The notes under the pieces were generated by a model. That model made no database searches and was not told the DNA's origin. It saw only the letters and a program-made list of their open reading frames with translations. Position numbers and translations under genes: made by a program. Source: Pinibacter soli (GTDB lineage Bacteria > Bacteroidota > Bacteroidia > Chitinophagales > Chitinophagaceae). Taken from it: a DNA stretch of 64,000 nt. This document shows positions 36,061 through 44,341 of this stretch, in pieces (the first letter of the stretch is position 1; every line of letters begins with the position of its first letter). The stretch is taken from the NCBI RefSeq assembly GCF_029961145.1, contig NZ_JASBRG010000001.1:434001-498000 (forward strand), written 5' to 3'.

Positions 36061-36147
36061 GGGATAACGAGGTCTTTGGCTGTTAACGAGGCCAATTTTG
36101 AGGATTTGCGTAAAAATACTCGCCTAGAGTTGATTTGAAGCCTTCGA

Positions 36148-37521
36148 TTATTCCTTTAATCTATATTTCAAGTTATCGAATAACCTTTCGATTAGCCTTC
36201 TGTTGCTAGTAACCACTTCGCCAGTTCCTTTCGTATCAAAATGAAAACTGAGTACTGAACCATAGTTGGTTGTTAGTTTTTGAGGCAAAGAAACCTCGAC
36301 CAAGTACGTATTTACTTTTGATTGCCCGTTTGAGTTTGCAAGATTTTGTGTGTTGGTAACCAACGATATTTTTTTAACCTTACCTTTTACTGAACCATAT
36401 TGCATATACGGATAATTATCCAGTTTAATAATCACATCCTGATTCATCTTCACTTTACCGGCGCCAGCTTCGGGCAAATACATAAATCCAAGCATTTCAT
36501 TTTCCTTGGGTACAATTGAAAATATTTCTTGCCCTGATTGTACAAAGTCTTCTGTTTTTAGAATATTTAAAAAATCTAATGTGCCGTTTATAGGGCTTAT
36601 GATGGCATATTTTTGGAACCACTCCTTAATACTGGCCTTTAAATCAAAGTAACTATTATGAAGATTAATGTCCAACTCCCGTTCTTTTTCAATCTGTTGA
36701 ACATCTAGTTGTTTTAATTTATTAGAAGCGTCTTTTAATTGATAATCATTATTAATAGCATCTTTTTGTACCGATACGAGTTCCTGCATTGTATTAAGCT
36801 CTGAGACTTTGGACTTTTCAAAATCTGCCTCTGAATTTACTTTATCTTTTAGTAATACCGAATCTCTTTGGTTTGCCTTTTGAGCAATAGCTTTTTTGGA
36901 TTTAGCCAGGCCAATAGACTGATTATTTATTTCCAACAGATTCTTTTGGGCATTGAAAAGATTTCCTCCTGCCTGCCTTTGCAACTCAAAAGGATGGGTG
37001 TTTGTATAGTCAAGAAACTGGTACAATGCGTTCAAAAAAGCGAAATATTTAGCATTGAGCTCCCCAACAGACAAATTTTTTGGAAAAAAATAACGACTGG
37101 AATTGTAGTTAAGCCTATCAATATTGGTACGGTTTAGTAAACTATCTAATAATTGGACATCTGCGAGTCGGGCATCGTTTTTTATAATCGCAATGCAATT
37201 ACCTGCATTTATAGAATCGCCATTTTTGAATTTTAAGAGCTGTAACGTTCCGTTTGTATTGGAAGTCAGTTTCACATTAGTCTGCTGTGCATTAATCGTT
37301 ATCTGACCTTGCAACACTTCAGGGAATTTGACTAAAAAGCCAAAAAGAATCATTGTGCCTACCAAAAACAAGACGATCGCACCTACCCACAATCCAAACT
37401 TAGTGGGCATGCGTTCTATTATATGCGAAACCTCATCAGAGCGCTTTTTGAAGTCATTTCCTATCGAACTATCCTTTTCTACGGTAGCTAATTGCAAATT
37501 ATTTTTAGTCATATAAGTCAT
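36148..37521 (-). CDS. HlyD-family periplasmic adaptor of a type I exporter
   Basis: 457 residues: a cytoplasmic N-terminus, one membrane helix (about 43-65, LWVGAIVLFLVGTMILFGF), a lipoyl-like half (GQITINAQQTNVKLTSNTNG), a long coiled-coil hairpin (about 90-290, rich in Lys, Gln and Leu), the second lipoyl half (YAIISPINGTLDFL) and a C-terminal beta-barrel domain. This is the membrane-fusion partner of C39-type ABC exporters such as those for bacteriocins. Its ATG overlaps the stop of the ABC gene by 4 nt (ATGA), indicating coupled translation. An outer membrane TolC-like partner is not encoded in the window. Confidence 0.88.
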   Translation of the reverse strand: MTYMTKNNLQLATVEKDSSIGNDFKKRSDEVSHIIERMPTKFGLWVGAIVLFLVGTMILFGFLVKFPEVLQGQITINAQQTNVKLTSNTNGTLQLLKFKNGDSINAGNCIAIIKNDARLADVQLLDSLLNRTNIDRLNYNSSRYFFPKNLSVGELNAKYFAFLNALYQFLDYTNTHPFELQRQAGGNLFNAQKNLLEINNQSIGLAKSKKAIAQKANQRDSVLLKDKVNSEADFEKSKVSELNTMQELVSVQKDAINNDYQLKDASNKLKQLDVQQIEKERELDINLHNSYFDLKASIKEWFQKYAIISPINGTLDFLNILKTEDFVQSGQEIFSIVPKENEMLGFMYLPEAGAGKVKMNQDVIIKLDNYPYMQYGSVKGKVKKISLVTNTQNLANSNGQSKVNTYLVEVSLPQKLTTNYGSVLSFHFDTKGTGEVVTSNRRLIERLFDNLKYRLKE

Positions 37522-39695
37522 CCTCCCATCTGTGCTTTTACTAATTGATAATAATGACCTTCTTTTCTTTGCATTAAAGATTGATGATTGCCTACTTCCA
37601 CCACGGTTCCACTTTTCATTACAATAATTTGGTCAGCCTTCTGAATTGTACTCAGGCGGTGGGCAACAACCATCACCGTTTTATCTTTAAAAATCGAGTC
37701 CAATGCCATTACTATTTTTTGTTCATTGATCGCATCCAACGCGTTAGTAGCTTCATCAAAAAATAAATAATCAGGATTTTTATATAGAGCTCTGGCTATC
37801 AAAATGCGTTGTTTTTGGCCCCCGCTTAAGCCCTTTCCCATTTCACCCATTATTGTTTGATAGCCCTTGGGCAAGGCTTCTATTTCAGTTGCAATGTTTG
37901 CAGTCGTAACGGCATTCTTTAAACGGCTGTAGTCAATATTTTCATCGTCCAAAACGATATTATTCAAAATCGTATCGTTAAACATTTTTCCATCCTGCAT
38001 TACTGCGCCGCAGATATCGCGCCACTGCCTAAGGTTAATGTTTTGAATGTTCAAATTGCCAATAGTGATATTTCCATGTGTGGGTTTGTATAACCGCAAG
38101 ATCAATTTTAGCAAAGTCGTTTTGCCACTGCCGCTATCGCCTACAATGGCGGTAACTTTTCCCTGCGGAATGATGAGAGAAACATTTTTTATTACAAAGT
38201 CTCCCGTCTTACCATATTGGAATGAGACATTTCGAAGGAGCAAGTTTCGTGTCTCCGACAATTCAATTTTATTGTTTACAACCTCCTCTTCTTCTTCCTC
38301 TAGCTGATGAATTTCATTTAATCTTAAAAAGCTAATTTTTGCATATTGATAATTCTGAATAAATGATATGAATTGCATTACAGGAGCATTGAGCATTCCA
38401 ATAATAAATTGAGAAGAAATCATTACCCCAAATGTTATTTGGCCGTTTATTACTGCATTTGCACAGAAGAAGGTAATACCCAAATTGGTAAGCTGATTAA
38501 TAAACTGAGCACCGGTGTTCTGGAGATTAGTGACGGTTTGCACTTTACGGCTTATTTTATAGAGTTGTACCTGTATATCTTCCCACTTCCAACGCTTTTG
38601 CTTTTCGTAGTTATTGATCTTAATATCCTGCACATTGCCAATGGCCTCTACCCAATAACTTTGATTTTTTGTATTTGCTTCAAAATACTCCCAATCCAGT
38701 TTTTTTCGTAGCCGCATAAAAAACAATACCCAGAAAATAAAGAGTGCACTACCGGTGAGATAAATAAGACATAAATAAAAATTATAGAACAATAAGATGA
38801 TACCGAATATAAAGAACGTAAGTGTTGAAAAAAGGAAGTTCAAAGAGTTGTTCATCATGAACTGCCTGATGCGATCATGATCCTGTGCTCTTTGCAAAAT
38901 GTCACCTATTAACTTGTTTTCGAAAAAGGTGATTGGCAGCTTCATTAATTTTATCAGGTAATCAGAAATTATAGAAATATTGACGCGTGAGGTAATATGC
39001 ATTAATATCCAATTCTGTGTTATGGTGCATAAAAGCGTGCACACGATGATTGTAATATTTGCAATCAGCATCATGTTAATGAACGTAATATCGTTGGCTT
39101 GAATGCCTACGTCAATAACAGACTTTGATATAAACGGTAAAACCCCTTGCAATAAAGTAGCCAGCAACATTACAATCAAAAGATTGGCGAAGCTTTTTCG
39201 ATACGGCGTAAAATAACTCAAAAAATTTTCAAATGTTTTACGCCGCTCTATTTTGGAATTTTTGTGTCGCTGGCTGAAATCTGCCATAGGCTCTATGGCA
39301 ATGACTGTTCCAACAGCTCCATCGGCGTCTATCCAATCTCTTTTAAATTCTGCAATAGTGTATTTCAGTAGTCCTCTTCCGGGATCGGAAACCTTTACAT
39401 GACTTTTGGTAATTTTATAAACAACAATAAAATGATTGCTCTTCCAATGTACAATAGATGGGAGCGGCATTACCTTGAAATCATCAAATGACAGTTGAAT
39501 GCACTTTGTTTTTAAACCAATAATTTCACAGGCATTACAAATGTCTAGAAGACTTACCCCTTCTGTGCCAATATTGCATAGGTCACGCAAATACGGCAAG
39601 CTGTAAAATTGCCCATAAAATTTAGAGATGATCTTAACACAAGCCGGGCCACAATCTTTGCTGTCAAGTTGGTATTCATGAGGAAAGTGAAACAT
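37518..39695 (-). CDS. C39-peptidase-containing ABC exporter (PCAT/ComA-LagD type)
   Basis: Processes double-glycine leaders and exports the cargo. Residues 1-130 are the C39 peptidase: YQLDSKDCGPACV (Gln9, Cys15), NHFIVVY (His88) and SDPGRG (Asp104), so all catalytic residues are present. About 160-440 is the six-helix membrane domain, and about 490-725 is the ATPase with GDSGSGKTT (about 519), LSGGQKQR (about 621), FFDEATNALD and VAHRLST. 725 residues. It overlaps the HlyD gene by 4 nt and follows the gene cluster that contains a GG-leader protein, its likely substrate. Confidence 0.93.
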   Translation of the reverse strand: MFHFPHEYQLDSKDCGPACVKIISKFYGQFYSLPYLRDLCNIGTEGVSLLDICNACEIIGLKTKCIQLSFDDFKVMPLPSIVHWKSNHFIVVYKITKSHVKVSDPGRGLLKYTIAEFKRDWIDADGAVGTVIAIEPMADFSQRHKNSKIERRKTFENFLSYFTPYRKSFANLLIVMLLATLLQGVLPFISKSVIDVGIQANDITFINMMLIANITIIVCTLLCTITQNWILMHITSRVNISIISDYLIKLMKLPITFFENKLIGDILQRAQDHDRIRQFMMNNSLNFLFSTLTFFIFGIILLFYNFYLCLIYLTGSALFIFWVLFFMRLRKKLDWEYFEANTKNQSYWVEAIGNVQDIKINNYEKQKRWKWEDIQVQLYKISRKVQTVTNLQNTGAQFINQLTNLGITFFCANAVINGQITFGVMISSQFIIGMLNAPVMQFISFIQNYQYAKISFLRLNEIHQLEEEEEEVVNNKIELSETRNLLLRNVSFQYGKTGDFVIKNVSLIIPQGKVTAIVGDSGSGKTTLLKLILRLYKPTHGNITIGNLNIQNINLRQWRDICGAVMQDGKMFNDTILNNIVLDDENIDYSRLKNAVTTANIATEIEALPKGYQTIMGEMGKGLSGGQKQRILIARALYKNPDYLFFDEATNALDAINEQKIVMALDSIFKDKTVMVVAHRLSTIQKADQIIVMKSGTVVEVGNHQSLMQRKEGHYYQLVKAQMGG

Positions 39696-39758
39696 TTAGA
39701 AAGAATTTCGCCAGTGTTGAGTTATTGTTGTTGTTCAATAGGTAAGTATTTGAGCATA

Positions 39759-40301
39759 TCAACGTATTCTTAAAGTGCAGAACTTTTCAATATTCTCCTT
39801 CGTCTTAGTAAACACGCTAATCATGGTTACGTCAGCCTTGTTTGCTCTGTACATTGGATCAATAATTATTCTTAAGAGATTATTTTCATCCACAAGAAAT
39901 TTGCGATAGTCTTCATTCACAATTTGATTGTCAATGACAAAAAAAACCACAGTACTGTCCGAAAGCTTAGTATACTTTTGCTTTAAGGCATTTAAAGAAA
40001 TGATCCGGGGATTGTAGTTCCTGTTTATACTATAAAAAAACATTTTGTTACCCGGCGCTACGTGAATACTATCAAGTACATCTCTGGGTATAGTACTGAC
40101 AAGGGATTCGTCAATTCGTTTATTATCGAGGTAAAACTCGACATCGGGATTTTTCAAAAATCTTTCCCCGTAATGCACTTCCAATGTTGTACCTACTTTT
40201 TCACTTCCTTTAATAACAACCCGCGTTTTGTCCCCAGTGATCTTTTGTCCAAAAGAGTTTGTTACAAAAAAAGCAAGTATTAGAGTTAAGGTTTGTTTCA
40301 T
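39759..40301 (-). CDS. Exported protein of unknown function, paralogue A
   Basis: I do not recognise a named family. 180 residues from the ATG ending at 40301 (MKQTLTLILAFF, signal peptide ending FGQ); the frame extends 10 codons further up. The body has two similar alpha/beta units: VEFYLDNKRIDESLVST before IPRDVLDSIHV, and VVFFVIDNQIVNEDYRKF before LLRIIIDPM. Their look (a short strand with DN or DG, then a helix, then I-x-I) recalls TonB-plug-like modules, which is only a suggestion. The C-terminus ends LRIR. Clearly paralogous to the gene at 40347-40877, 15 nt upstream of its unit. Confidence 0.6.
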   Translation of the reverse strand: MKQTLTLILAFFVTNSFGQKITGDKTRVVIKGSEKVGTTLEVHYGERFLKNPDVEFYLDNKRIDESLVSTIPRDVLDSIHVAPGNKMFFYSINRNYNPRIISLNALKQKYTKLSDSTVVFFVIDNQIVNEDYRKFLVDENNLLRIIIDPMYRANKADVTMISVFTKTKENIEKFCTLRIR

Positions 40302-40346
40302 AATAGTGATTTGATAGTTTTGCTTAAACATTCAATTCTAAAAAGA

Positions 40347-40877
40347 TTACCGTATAATCATATACTTTTCGTTCCAAGCCCTTTCTTCTGCTGGTGTTAA
40401 TAAGCAAATGACGGTAATATTGTTGGCTTTATTTGTGTGATCCATTGGTTCTACAATCATTTTTGAGAAAAGCTTTTCATTGACAATGTATTTATCATAA
40501 TCGTCATTGATAATTCTTCCGTGAAGCATAAAAAGAACAGCGGCAGTATCAGGCAAATTAGTAACCTTAGCTTTTAATGCTGTTAATGTGATGGGCTTGT
40601 GAAGCCAATCATTTTTTGTGTTAACGTGCACCTGATTATTATTAACATCGACATTACTGATAAGCTCTGGTTCTAAATCTCCTACAATGTATTCGTCAAC
40701 TAATACATTATTTATAAAGAATTTAGTATTGGGTTTTAAAGGTTGCTTTTTAAAATATTCAACCCTTAAAACAGTATCGCTACCGGCAATTATAACGCCA
40801 CTTACTTTACTGTTTGTAATCTGCCCAAATATATTTGTTGCACATAGTAGCAGTGTTAATGTTATTAGTTGTCTCAT
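40347..40877 (-). CDS. Exported protein of unknown function, paralogue B
   Basis: 176 residues: signal peptide (1-19, ending FGQ) and a body that aligns along its length with the downstream gene: FFINNVLVDEYIVGDLEP against FYLDNKRIDES, ITLTALKAKVTNLPDTAAVL against ISLNALKQKYTKLSDSTVVF, RIINDDYDKYIVNE against QIVNEDYRKFLVDE, and a KYMIIR end against LRIR. The two arose by tandem duplication followed by strong divergence. Function unknown; periplasmic or outer-membrane location is predicted. In a locus that exports a protease-like protein, an inhibitor or receptor role is possible. Confidence 0.6.
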   Translation of the reverse strand: MRQLITLTLLLCATNIFGQITNSKVSGVIIAGSDTVLRVEYFKKQPLKPNTKFFINNVLVDEYIVGDLEPELISNVDVNNNQVHVNTKNDWLHKPITLTALKAKVTNLPDTAAVLFMLHGRIINDDYDKYIVNEKLFSKMIVEPMDHTNKANNITVICLLTPAEERAWNEKYMIIR

Positions 40878-40891
40878 ATAAATAATGGAGC

Positions 40892-41710
40892 TTATCTTAT
40901 CATTATTTTTTGTGTTCGATTGTCGGAAGCCTTTTGATATGACGACAAGACGAGTGTTTTAGGATGAGAAGCAGGAAACTCCCCTGATAAACGGACTTCC
41001 AAAAATGTTGCCCCCGCGGAAAACGGGAAGTCCAAAATATCATATTCCCACTTTTCACCATTACATAGTTCGGCGTATTGATATGGCTGAAAACATATAT
41101 TTACATTATAGCTTTCAGATTTCTCAATAGTAAAAGAACAAGGTTTACAACCTATATAAATCGCTTGACCGGTAACAGGAAAATCACTATCCTTTAACAT
41201 AAAAGTGTGTTGACCTCCGTGGGAATCTAATGAGTGCCGATATACCGTGTCTCTATTTTTGTTTAATAAAACTGCAGATATATAATTGATCGCCTTAAGC
41301 CCGCTACTGTCCATTCCTTGAACAGTGATTATTTTATTCGAATCCCTACTACTTTTTTGTTTAATAATGTTAACTCTTGTTTTTAGAGCAGGGACGACAT
41401 CGGAATTTTCAAAATTCAGGTACAGTTTTTTACCAGATATTTTATATGTACCTTTCCCAAACCCGGCAGTCTGGTCAATAAGCCATTTTGAATTATTCCA
41501 ATAGAAAAAAGAGTCGGTGCCATATTTAAAAGTAATCGATTCATAAAAATAGGTTGTATCCTTCTCTGTATCCAAGCTGCCAACATAGGTTCCTCCTATT
41601 TTATTCTGCAGTTGTGAATACGAAGTATCCCGATTGCGATTAGCTTGCCCAAAGCAAAAAGATTGACTGACGATTAAACTAAGTGCCAAAAAATATTTAT
41701 ACATGCTCAT
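40892..41710 (-). CDS. Exported protein of unknown function with a beta-rich N-terminal half
   Basis: 272 residues: signal peptide (about 1-21, ending CFGQ), then alternating polar and hydrophobic strands (GGTYVGSLDTEKDTTYFYES, GKGTYKISGKKLYLNFENSD) like lipocalin or DUF-type beta barrels, then a second beta domain with a Cys pair (IGCKPCSFTIEKSESYNV). The C-terminus ends KIMIR, much like the two genes that follow (YMIIR, LRIR). It starts 15 nt upstream of paralogue B. I cannot assign a family. Second Met (41704) is a possible alternative start. Confidence 0.55.
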   Translation of the reverse strand: MSMYKYFLALSLIVSQSFCFGQANRNRDTSYSQLQNKIGGTYVGSLDTEKDTTYFYESITFKYGTDSFFYWNNSKWLIDQTAGFGKGTYKISGKKLYLNFENSDVVPALKTRVNIIKQKSSRDSNKIITVQGMDSSGLKAINYISAVLLNKNRDTVYRHSLDSHGGQHTFMLKDSDFPVTGQAIYIGCKPCSFTIEKSESYNVNICFQPYQYAELCNGEKWEYDILDFPFSAGATFLEVRLSGEFPASHPKTLVLSSYQKASDNRTQKIMIR

Positions 41711-41830
41711 AATTAGTGGTTAGATATTCATCATTTAAAATATTGCAGAGCCTCAGTTTTGCCCAATAGCTAATAGATTAAAGTAGAACAGCATACAAAA
41801 AGTCTCTACAATAATATTCATTTACTAATT

Positions 41831-42889
41831 TCATTTAACTGATGTAAGAATTTTTATCGAATACGCGGCTACGGCTCCAGAATTAAGAGACTGAAGTGAC
41901 ATTGTATCCATTCTTCCAGTCATCGTATTGGCGTATGAAAATGTGGGATTACCATTCGCGTCCTTGGTGTAACTTGTAAAAGTAATTTCATGTCCCACTC
42001 CTGAATGGTAGTAATTAGGTATGATAGCTAAAACAGGCTGGTTATTATCCAACGCTTTCATAATATCGCCCGCGCCGCTTATATCCTGATAGTTAAAAAA
42101 ATGACCAATGATAGTGTTATACTCGCCGCTACTGGTGTTTGTTCCGCTGTTTATTACATCTGTACTGCTGGTATTAGCTTCCACCCAGTCAGTTATCTTC
42201 TGTACATCAATTGAATGTCCTAATAGCGCTGAGGCATAGCTCATATTTGTTTCCACGCAACTTTCGCCATCCTGAACAGGAATGGGAACAGAAGAGAAAT
42301 AAGAAAAAGCGTCCGGCATTTGATGAGCATTTGCACTATAAAACCCCATCGCATCGTTAAAATAGCCTGAACTGTTTTTCATCCCATCTTCAATACCCTT
42401 TTGCCATAAATCTCCATACATCCATGCGTAGTCATAACTTTGCCCATAGTTACTAGCATCATCTAACGCATTAAACAAATATGTTGGATCAATATTCATT
42501 TCCAACGCCGCATTCAACATATCTTCCACATAGGTTTTTTGGCTCCAGCCAAGGCCTTTCAAATCATTACTGGCCTCAGATGCCTGAATTGAATCATATC
42601 CACTGGTAATACCCCCAACCCTGGAGCCCAATACAATGTCTTCCATATCTTCGAAGCCCACTCCAAGGCAGGCGTCCTGCCCATACGCAGCCACAGCGGC
42701 ATAAAAGCCATCAATATATTTACCAAAATATCCCGCTGCCTCACCATTAAAATTGTCCATAGAGCCAACCGCTGCCACCAATCCATTATTAGTATAAACA
42801 AAAAGGTTGCCTCCCTTTTTACTCTTCATGTCTTCTTTTGTAAGATTAACCTGAAGTTCCCCAAAACTCAGTTTTTGTGTTTTCCTCAT
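41831..42889 (-). CDS. GG-leader exported protein with papain-like C-terminal domain
   Basis: 352 residues. The N-terminus (QKLSFGELQVNLTKEDMKSK, then KGG) is a Bacteroidota double-glycine leader: KLSFxEL, a polar helix with KEDM, and Gly26-Gly27, where a C39 peptidase would cut. The mature part of 325 residues has a helical half (about 45-190) and a C-terminal half with the order of a papain-fold peptidase: Gln206, Cys211 (QDGESCVETNMSYAS), His300 (SGVGHEITFTSYTKD) and Asn321 (SYANTMTG). QPVLAIIPNYY before the His is the strand typical of C39-like proteins. No signal peptide. The exporter gene lies four genes downstream. Confidence 0.7.
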   Translation of the reverse strand: MRKTQKLSFGELQVNLTKEDMKSKKGGNLFVYTNNGLVAAVGSMDNFNGEAAGYFGKYIDGFYAAVAAYGQDACLGVGFEDMEDIVLGSRVGGITSGYDSIQASEASNDLKGLGWSQKTYVEDMLNAALEMNIDPTYLFNALDDASNYGQSYDYAWMYGDLWQKGIEDGMKNSSGYFNDAMGFYSANAHQMPDAFSYFSSVPIPVQDGESCVETNMSYASALLGHSIDVQKITDWVEANTSSTDVINSGTNTSSGEYNTIIGHFFNYQDISGAGDIMKALDNNQPVLAIIPNYYHSGVGHEITFTSYTKDANGNPTFSYANTMTGRMDTMSLQSLNSGAVAAYSIKILTSVK

Positions 42890-42925
42890 ACTTAAATTTT
42901 ATATTTTGATTAATGTGTAAAAAAT

Positions 42926-43330
42926 CTAGCTTCTTTTATATCGCAGCACTACCTCACCGTCTTTTAAAATAAGGCTGTCCTTAGTAAGCGAAATAATCTT
43001 ATAAGCCATCGTATCTATACCTTCAGTATGATTACCTATACTTTTACTTACAAGATGAAGACTGTCAGAAGCTGCCCACCACTTGGTATATATCAACGTG
43101 GCACTATTGATAGATTTTGCGGAGCTGTCGGATAAAAGCTCAAACCCCTGTATTTCTTTTTCGTTACCGGGAATAGGCTCTGCCCATCGACCTGTTAAGG
43201 ATTGTTTATCGAGATGTGCAGAATCATCAGGAGAGATTATAACGTCAGTTTGCTGACTTGTATTTACTCTTTCATTGCAAGAGCAAAGTATTGCAGAGAC
43301 GACAAAAACACGCAATAGAAGCTTATTCAT
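42926..43330 (-). CDS. Lipocalin-like lipoprotein
   Basis: 134 residues with a lipoprotein signal (RVFVVSAILCSC, likely lipidated Cys18) and a lipocalin-type domain: LTGRWAEPIPGNEKEIQGFE, LLSDSSAKSINSATLIYTKW, SKSIGNHTEG, TMAYKIISLTKDSLILKDGE. This pattern (GRW, SINSATL, SIGN) is that of the short Bacteroidota periplasmic lipocalin-like proteins. It would sit on a membrane facing the periplasm, or on the cell surface. It is the first gene of the seven-gene set and lies 36 nt upstream of the GG-leader gene. An immunity role is possible but unproven. Confidence 0.75.
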   Translation of the reverse strand: MNKLLLRVFVVSAILCSCNERVNTSQQTDVIISPDDSAHLDKQSLTGRWAEPIPGNEKEIQGFELLSDSSAKSINSATLIYTKWWAASDSLHLVSKSIGNHTEGIDTMAYKIISLTKDSLILKDGEVVLRYKRS

Positions 43331-43443: not shown

Positions 43444-43518
43444 GTTGAAAAGGGACTTTTTAAAGAGGCTTAAAAAGGGTATTTTTCTCTCTGGTCGCCC
43501 AAAATTTCAAATTAAAAA

Positions 43519-43526
43519 TACCTTTG
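43519..43526 (+). promoter_or_regulatory. Candidate -7 box of the acid phosphatase gene
   Basis: TACCTTTG, 17 nt before the ATG at 43544. It supports that start over the much longer open frame beginning at 43331. Confidence 0.4.
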
Positions 43527-43543
43527 TTTCAAACTTTAGGGAT

Positions 43544-44341
43544 ATGCGAAAATACTTGTTCATATTAGTTGCGTTGGCTGCAGCATGCTCTCCGTCGAAA
43601 CGTACACAGTCTACGACTTCTTCGTCAATTGTTATCGATGGCAAACTCTGGGCATCTGTTTACCAGCAAAAAGCGGCAGAATACAAGGCGCTTTGCTACC
43701 AGGCTTATAATATCGCTCAGTTGAGATTGGATCAATCTTTACAAGCTGCTGGAAAGCCGAAAGCAGTTGTTACGGATATCGACGAAACGTTTTTGGACAA
43801 CAGTCCTTATGCTGCTAAGCAATCTTTAAATGCCAGAGACTATGAGGCGGCAACATGGAGTGAGTGGACCTCACTTGGACAGGCAGACACACTTGCCGGT
43901 GCGCTTGGATTCTTTAAATATGCGGCTTCAAAAAATGTAGAGGTTTTTTATATCACCAATCGTGAGGAAAAGGAAAGAGCCGGCACATTAAAGAATCTTC
44001 AACAATTCGGATTCCCCTTTGCGGATGATGCGCATTTGATAATGCGCCAACCGGGCAGCTCTTCCAGCAAGGAATCAAGAAGGCAAACTGTTTTGCAAAC
44101 GCATGATATCATCCTTTTATTGGGTGATAATCTTGGCGATTTCAGCGTTTTGTTTGATAAGAAAAGTCTGGATGAACGTAATACAAATACCTTTATAAGT
44201 GCCCAAGAGTTTGGCAAACGATTTATTGTCCTGCCTAATCCATCCTACGGAGATTGGGAAGGCGCTTTGTATAATTACAATTACAAATTATCTCCTGCCC
44301 AAAAAGATTCGGTAGTAAGAGCGAATGTGAAGGGATTTTGA
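43544..44341 (+). CDS. Lipoprotein e(P4)-family class B-like acid phosphatase (5'-nucleotidase)
   Basis: HAD-superfamily phosphatase at the cell envelope that removes phosphate from nucleotides such as NMN or AMP. Lipoprotein signal with Cys15 (LVALAAACSPS). Catalytic motif DIDETFLDN (Asp78, Asp80), then a Thr/Ser-type second motif (YITNREEKERAGTL) and LLGDNLGDF as the acidic motif III. 265 residues from ATG 43544, the family size. The frame is open to 43331 but the upstream part has no family match and lies before the -7 box. Divergent from the GG-leader locus; no evidence of a joint role. Confidence 0.9.
   Translation: MRKYLFILVALAAACSPSKRTQSTTSSSIVIDGKLWASVYQQKAAEYKALCYQAYNIAQLRLDQSLQAAGKPKAVVTDIDETFLDNSPYAAKQSLNARDYEAATWSEWTSLGQADTLAGALGFFKYAASKNVEVFYITNREEKERAGTLKNLQQFGFPFADDAHLIMRQPGSSSSKESRRQTVLQTHDIILLLGDNLGDFSVLFDKKSLDERNTNTFISAQEFGKRFIVLPNPSYGDWEGALYNYNYKLSPAQKDSVVRANVKGF

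Follow-up and report, generated by a model that had tools for sequence, protein, structure and literature searches.

What does a C39-peptidase exporter secrete when the only double-glycine (GG) leader protein at its side is 352 residues long? The question is raised by a locus at positions 36148-43330 of a 64,000-nucleotide stretch of the Pinibacter soli genome (hereafter the window; positions 434,001-498,000 of contig NZ_JASBRG010000001.1, assembly GCF_029961145.1). A passage of a 2021 review sets an upper limit of about 10 kDa on the substrates of ATP-binding cassette (ABC) transporters whose C39 domain works, and assigns large type I cargo to transporters with a degenerate C39-like domain (PMC8277102). 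Here, we propose, with a probability of about 0.7, that the locus is an island of six genes that moves horizontally and serves the type I export of an antibacterial effector. It would be one of a clade of loci with large interchangeable cargos, polymorphic toxins exported by way of C39 domains and GG leaders. The proposal has a computed basis, consisting of the genes, an empty site, the exporter clade, its large cargos, toxin-type domains in some of them, co-variation of cargos with their neighbours, and a papain-like fold.

In the proposed mechanism, the 352-residue protein would be made with a 27-residue GG leader. The ABC exporter would recognise this leader through its active C39 domain and cut after the GG motif. 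The remaining residues, about 325, would leave the cell as the mature protein through the ABC exporter, the HlyD adaptor and a TolC-like channel whose gene lies elsewhere. The papain/C39-like cysteine protease at the C-terminus of the mature protein may then attack a competitor, and the exported products of the next genes, first of all X272, may protect the producer.

The export locus and its cargo

The locus contains seven open reading frames (ORFs), all on the minus strand and at the positions given by an earlier reading of the DNA (the original prediction). The genes are separated by gaps of 14, 15, 36, 63 and 120 nucleotides, and those of the exporter and adaptor overlap by 4 nucleotides. 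The exporter (725 residues; 37518-39695, minus strand) is composed of Peptidase_C39 (7.7e-32), ABC_membrane and ABC_tran domains (Pfam), with a C39 triad of C15, H88 and D104. The adjacent HlyD-type membrane-fusion adaptor (457 residues; 36148-37521, minus strand; HlyD_3, 3.8e-13, Pfam) is 38-44% identical to the HlyD proteins adjoining the close exporters L033-L035. An intact Cys-His-Asp C39 domain fused to an ABC exporter, with a HlyD adaptor alongside and a GG-leader substrate at the same locus, is the type I arrangement of peptidase-containing ABC transporters (PCATs). The feature that fails is the small PCAT substrate of about 10 kDa or less, as the cargo is 352 residues long.

The cargo gene (41831-42889, minus strand) starts with the GG leader, residues 1-27 (42809-42889, minus strand), for which the leader model TIGR04149 and position counts predict C39 cleavage after G27. 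Residues 1-28 match TIGR04149 with 15.6 bits, and with 19.2 bits in a search of the whole 5.9 Mb genome, both below the cut-off of 25. Weak as it is, this match ranks first in the genome (E 0.0082, the next being 0.34), and it shares its locus with the single Peptidase_C39 domain detected there, that of the window exporter. With the window left out of the scoring matrix described below, the leader scores 4.7 against a threshold of 4. L(-12), D(-8) and M(-7) come near the Leu-X3-Glu-Leu rule as given in part of PMC8277102. Fifteen N-terminal GG starts occur between 36000 and 43400 in ORFs of at least 20 residues; all 15 lie inside annotated genes and only that of the 352-residue protein has a leader-like score, therefore the gaps hold no short GG ORF. 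The original prediction had claimed both this absence and the pairing of the exporter with a large GG-leader protein, and the two claims stand.

The C-terminal domain of the cargo (residues ~199-352) is assigned to a papain/C39-like fold, in agreement with the original prediction, because Peptidase_C39_2 (PF13529) reaches 24.1 bits against a cut-off of 24.0 and the AlphaFold model has a papain/C39-like C-terminal domain. The papain-fold feature is present, and the Cys-His-Asp/Asn triad is formed by C211, H300 and N321. Structural matches of the model include C39 domains, and staphopain with its inhibitor. A search of PDB sequences gave chance-level matches only, at E 0.3 for the full protein and E 0.79 for residues 174-352. 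Two candidate homologues were rejected. The sole non-self match among 294 genomes of the family (Chitinophagaceae), found in G079 at 1.3e-4, falls in what looks like the reading frame of an aminopeptidase, and a match at E 0.008 among 395 genomes of the phylum, in a 1158-residue frame, is regarded as chance.

Two genomes of the same genus, G009 and G109, have an empty site. In both, the gene corresponding to 43472-44341 (phosphatase-like, as read by eye), the orthologue of the Lipocalin_3 lipoprotein and a sigma-factor gene are neighbours; the lipoprotein orthologue is 58-60% identical and occupies the same site. The lipoprotein gene (42926-43330, minus strand; Lipocalin_3, 4.1e-28, Pfam) is an ancestral, resident chromosomal gene that flanks the acquired unit. 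Because both genomes carry it at the site without the rest, the unit comprises six genes rather than the seven originally predicted. Homology to G009 and G109 ends at 36063 and 36060, and the island spans 36064-42925. In the two genomes, its cargo, exporter and adaptor are matched at chance level only, and neither genome contains an exporter match at E 1e-100, with three candidates scored per genome. The fraction of G and C is 0.341-0.370 across 36-42 kb, 0.401 across 42-43 kb, where the cargo gene takes up most of the sequence, and 0.375-0.452 in the compared flanks. No direct or inverted repeats of 8-20 nucleotides were found between the compared island ends. The empty site alone fits gain or loss; gain is favoured because the distribution is patchy, an exporter of 63-68% identity being present in 4 of 293 other family genomes in a screen that scored only three first-look candidates per genome.

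The exporter clade and its cargos

Relatives of the exporter were collected from an alignment of five exporters, and the best 80 of 167 were taken as loci. Together with L033 and the window, they form the 82 exporters of clade A. Sister set B comprises 36 exporters from the window's own family only, at most 48% identical to the window exporter; the duplicate loci L034, L035 and L036 were left out. In a FastTree phylogeny of the 118 exporters, clade A is split from the sister set by a branch of 0.55 with support 100. The nearest neighbours of the window exporter are 13 Flavobacterium/Flavobacteriaceae exporters (support 99), in a tree for which FastTree warns of long branches meeting. C15 is conserved in 81 of the 82 clade A exporters (the other has a gap) and H88 and D104 in all 82, and therefore an active peptidase is predicted. 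Two contigs with clade A exporters are titled Beijerinckiaceae (L090) and Cloacimonadota (L137), although the titles may reflect binning errors; the position of the L090 exporter is the same as in G145:C198 of the window's family.

Large cargos distinguish clade A from the sister set. Leader ORFs have at least 150 residues in 62 of 68 cases in clade A versus 0 of 42 in the sister set, and median lengths are 212 and 66 residues, so that homologous loci mostly do not pair the exporter with short precursors, a pairing that would have told against the original prediction. The mature parts of 63 clade cargos of at least 100 residues are 120-438 residues long (median 185), apart from one of 618 that spans an assembly gap; 58 of the 63 leaders end in GG, four in AG and one in GA. 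Leader ORFs were detected in 56 of 81 clade A loci (window excluded) and 17 of 36 sister loci. The remaining 25 and 19 loci yielded none, many being cut by contig ends, yet L130, L139 and L153 have full flanks. Five clade A loci (L078, L094, L123, L142 and L155) have only ORFs shorter than 150 residues. When loci without a leader are omitted, large versus small cargo takes six changes on the exporter tree.

Manual inspection of the 78 matches of the regular-expression leader scan discarded 22 as internal starts or household genes. For the scoring matrix, the training leaders were those of clade A ORFs of at least 100 residues and of sister ORFs shorter than 150, each locus being excluded from its own scoring. 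Because the training sets were chosen by ORF length, a bias towards the length split is possible; earlier regular-expression scans show the same length trend. The sister exporters L045, L058 and L066 adjoin sets of 5 to 8 short GG/AG leader ORFs (52-80 residues), the usual peptide arrangement. At L078:8080-9402, a 46-residue GG leader ORF precedes a lipase-like ORF that lacks a leader, and the cargo appears interrupted.

The cargo slot is variable, and papain-like proteins are one of several cargo kinds. In a Pfam scan of 55 aligned cargos (E 0.01), Peptidase_C39_2 matches three, and Toxin-JAB1, DUF5675, Phage_lysozyme, Tox-MPTase2, YkuD and Peptidase_C70 match two each. DUF6973, CHAP, Amidase_6, Pentapeptide_2, Bacteriocin_IIc, ComC, Porin_2 and GP40 have one match each, the last of which are, in our reading, matches to leaders or low-complexity segments. 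Scans of single proteins gave Tox-MPTase2 at 1.2e-26 (L105, whose leader ends in AG), DUF6973 at 6.8e-20, Toxin-JAB1 at 1.8e-19, DUF5675 at 2e-18, Phage_lysozyme at 1.7e-8, YkuD at 1.4e-5 and CHAP at 1.5e-5 (just under the cut-off). TIGR04149 matches 13 of the 55 cargos at E 0.1. Where no Pfam row accompanies them, the labels papain-like, lipase-like, HExxH and pore-like denote motifs read by eye. The original prediction suggested a type I system for a cysteine-protease-like effector, its own test being whether the 352-residue gene recurs at loci with this exporter. The gene has no homologue in any other genome or collection searched, and therefore, as well as by its variable slot, the system is not one dedicated to a cysteine protease.

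Eight of ten Flavobacteriaceae cargos have common N-terminal stretches across kinds, 90-263 residues long and 34-78% identical; the lysozyme L082 and the lipase-like L086, for example, are 54% identical over 192 residues. The C-termini of the eight are lysozyme (three), lipase-like (three) and two different metallopeptidase-like kinds. Judged by sequence, this pattern is a polymorphic-toxin architecture. The two pore-like cargos have only 42-122 residues in common with the rest, at 25-48% identity.

The cargos of L106, L108, L110, L120 and L132 have, by our own reading, a glycine-rich hydrophobic C-terminus and are followed by small proteins, four of which have a membrane-like N-terminus, an arrangement like that of pore-forming bacteriocins. 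Some clade A exporters adjoin LanC-like, glycosyltransferase and (weakly) nucleotidyltransferase-like genes (L033:8754-11532, L104:4369-7166 and L091:6008-7645), so that the Gly/Ser/Tyr-rich linkers of cargos might be modified. The window island contains no gene of these three types.

Genes after the cargo

A same-strand gene lies at most 300 bp downstream of 60 of the 63 clade cargos, window included. The N-terminus is signal-like, membrane or lipoprotein in 54 of these 60 next genes versus 314 of 675 other locus genes, as called by a crude regular expression. The exported neighbours fit a role in self-protection, one of two that the original prediction considered for them and for the lipoprotein; the lipoprotein gene is a resident one. 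The exported gene after the cargo tends to change with the cargo domain across the clade. A nine-member exported family directly follows papain-like cargos only, 9 of 15 papain-like by motif and none of the other 45 for which a downstream gene exists; L152 and L156, both papain-like, have weaker members nearby, and one fragment is located upstream of a non-papain cargo, L096_1270. In Flavobacteriaceae, cargos of one kind tend to have a next-gene family in common, as in 3 of 3 lipase-like, 2 of 2 pore-like and 2 of 3 lysozyme cargos. Among the 60 cargos, 23 pairs from different loci match in both C-terminal cluster and neighbour family, which none of 2000 shuffles reached. Against co-variation, 47 pairs match in cluster but not neighbour and 40 in neighbour but not cluster. 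The loci are related, and P values are thus overstated; one C-terminal cluster, with ten members including the window, combines cargos of different kinds and has a chained appearance.

Dissimilar cargos (L117, L124, L125, L143, L144 and L147) are directly followed by members of an exported family of six proteins with about 420-630 residues. The one member scanned, L035:4792-6591 (same locus as L125), matches erythromycin esterase at 3.8e-22. The role of the family may be that of a general accessory factor, not of immunity.

Three exported proteins follow the cargo of the window on the same strand. X272 (40892-41710, minus strand) is encoded directly after it, followed by X176 (40347-40877, minus strand) and its paralogue X190 (39759-40331, minus strand; 33% identity), the third gene after the cargo. 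All three have signal-like N-termini, and none reaches a family cut-off in Pfam and NCBIfam scans. By analogy, they are candidate immunity proteins, X176 and X190 alternatively accessory ones, and X272 is the most likely candidate by position. A third X190/X176 paralogue is encoded elsewhere in the genome (L180:6141-6707; G000:C11:1188149-1188682) and contains a motif reminiscent of TonB plug domains. X190/X176 and X272 were rejected as markers of the system, having relatives in 2 and 1 of 395 other genomes (for X272 one weak relative, in G414, at E 5.5e-4), which lie away from any such exporter in the stretches examined for G335 and G414.

Competing explanations and related systems

Several observations weigh against a toxin island with a papain-like effector. 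In the cargo model, the block of H300 has a pLDDT (per-residue model confidence) of 59, and the alignment given to AlphaFold included hand-chosen papain-like cargos, which may favour the papain fold. The cargo has no credible homologue in the genome contigs, the 294 family genomes, the 395 phylum genomes, plasmids or viral contigs. A profile of 14 other papain-like cargos misses it (E 6.4 among 86 window ORFs, far below the top row), and hhalign against that profile gives a probability of 0.9%; therefore we claim no sequence kinship between the window cargo and other papain-like cargos. The leader is atypical, since dropping Flavobacteriaceae leaders from an earlier matrix lowers its score from 2.6 to -4.1, and its residue at -4 is K, at a position occupied by I, F, Y or V in 52 of 63 clade leaders. 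Among 20 singly scanned clade cargos, nine have no Pfam row at E 0.05. Pfam finds no outer-membrane channel among the seven locus proteins, the genome not having been searched for a TolC-like channel. No window neighbour belongs to the nine-member exported family or matches other clade neighbours. As the cargo lacks homologues and its neighbours fall outside the known family, the toxin and immunity roles proposed for the window are assigned by position and analogy.

The cargo could instead be a secreted nutritional or housekeeping protease, with the exported neighbours as accessory factors or inhibitors against self-digestion. A papain-like fold suits a general protease, staphopain and its inhibitor are among the structural matches, and a victim or toxicity is not known. 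However, related exporters in sister loci serve lysozyme, L,D-transpeptidase, JAB-toxin and Tox-MPTase domains, and the patchy distribution and the empty site in the genus also count against a housekeeping role, which we regard as improbable. That the GG motif is incidental, with the exporter serving an unlinked short peptide and the 352-residue protein staying in the cytoplasm, appears very unlikely. The leader score is near threshold and the cargo itself is not conserved across loci, but the genome's top TIGR04149 match would then stand by accident in the same operon as the only detected C39 domain, with L(-12), D(-8) and M(-7) in place, in a clade where large cargos are the rule. Least likely of all is that the 352-residue protein is a C39-like maturation protease or the precursor of a ribosomally synthesised and post-translationally modified peptide (RiPP), the true product being a smaller fragment: GG is the cleavage site of C39-like proteases such as ComA and LahT and of the toxin Cpe1 (passage of PMC12136450), C39 domains are among the structural matches, the leader resembles TIGR04149, a model of radical S-adenosylmethionine RiPP leaders, and part of a Bacteroidales RiPP survey reports precursors with long cores (PMC10352776), yet the leader stays under the cut-off of that model, Pfam and NCBIfam find no modifying-enzyme domain among the seven locus proteins, the island has no second leader-like GG ORF, and several other clade cargos match plain enzyme domains.

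The favoured toxin export island resembles polymorphic toxin systems, which, in the passages of Zhang et al. 2012 (PMC3482391) used here, combine a constant N-terminal trafficking part with an exchangeable C-terminal toxin domain and an immunity gene after the toxin, and likewise use papain/C39-like peptidase domains as toxins. The Pfam toxin families Tox-MPTase2 and Toxin-JAB1 also occur among clade cargos. Clade A differs in its predicted export route, a GG leader and an ABC transporter with an active C39 domain. The pathways tabulated in that source are the type 2, 5, 6 and 7 secretion systems (T2, T5, T6, T7), PVC, TcdB/TcaC, PrsW and MuF; type I is mentioned for RTX toxins, and the C39/GG route is not among the tabulated ones. 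Cpe1 and its relatives, papain-like interbacterial toxins compared here by description, ride the type VI secretion system or contact-dependent inhibition systems in the part of PMC12136450 consulted, rather than using a GG leader and type I export.

PCAT bacteriocin exporters such as CvaAB of microcin V have in common with clade A an active C39 domain, a HlyD adaptor and an LxxxE[LM]...GG leader. They differ in cargo size, 120-438 residues after the leader in the clade (one of 618) versus the limit of about 10 kDa in the cited passage of PMC8277102; microcin V secretion falls at 116 residues, according to an excerpt of PMC10231218. Bacteroidetocins, as described in part of PMC6671954, are likewise antibacterial and have a Bacteroidota exporter with a GG-peptidase domain and a GG leader, but are small Cys-bearing class IIa-like peptides accompanied by a multi-transmembrane protein and mostly a thiol oxidoreductase; Pfam finds these partner families in none of the seven window proteins. 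In the Cdz glycine-zipper system of Caulobacter, antibacterial proteins leave by type I export and a small membrane protein gives immunity; by our own reading, the system resembles the glycine-rich hydrophobic cargos of the clade such as L108 and L132, but its proteins have 84-86 residues, RTX-like N-termini and no enzyme domains (sections of PMC5380434). Section 3.2 of the RiPP survey describes a transporter-less cluster with two long-core precursors, each followed by a putative signalling protein, and reads it as RiPP biosynthesis (PMC10352776); this cluster may overlap with clade A. A polymorphic-toxin system exported by the C39/GG route was not found in the titles and abstract openings of the literature searched, which included few subscription papers and no preprints and is no proof of novelty.

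On the broader scale, we lean towards a Bacteroidota-wide clade of active-C39 exporters whose dedicated cargos are entire enzymes and pore-like proteins, about 120-440 residues long. Such cargos would constitute a separate class of GG-leader polymorphic toxins that has its own route of export and cognate exported immunity proteins, and the window would hold a lineage-specific cysteine-protease member of this class. Clade A appears to break the cargo rule of about 10 kDa and offers a testable handle on what sets cargo size. If the proposal is true, polymorphic toxins of Bacteroidota, Bacteroides and Prevotella included, would have a further export route, and cargo-immunity pairs would be at hand for assay.

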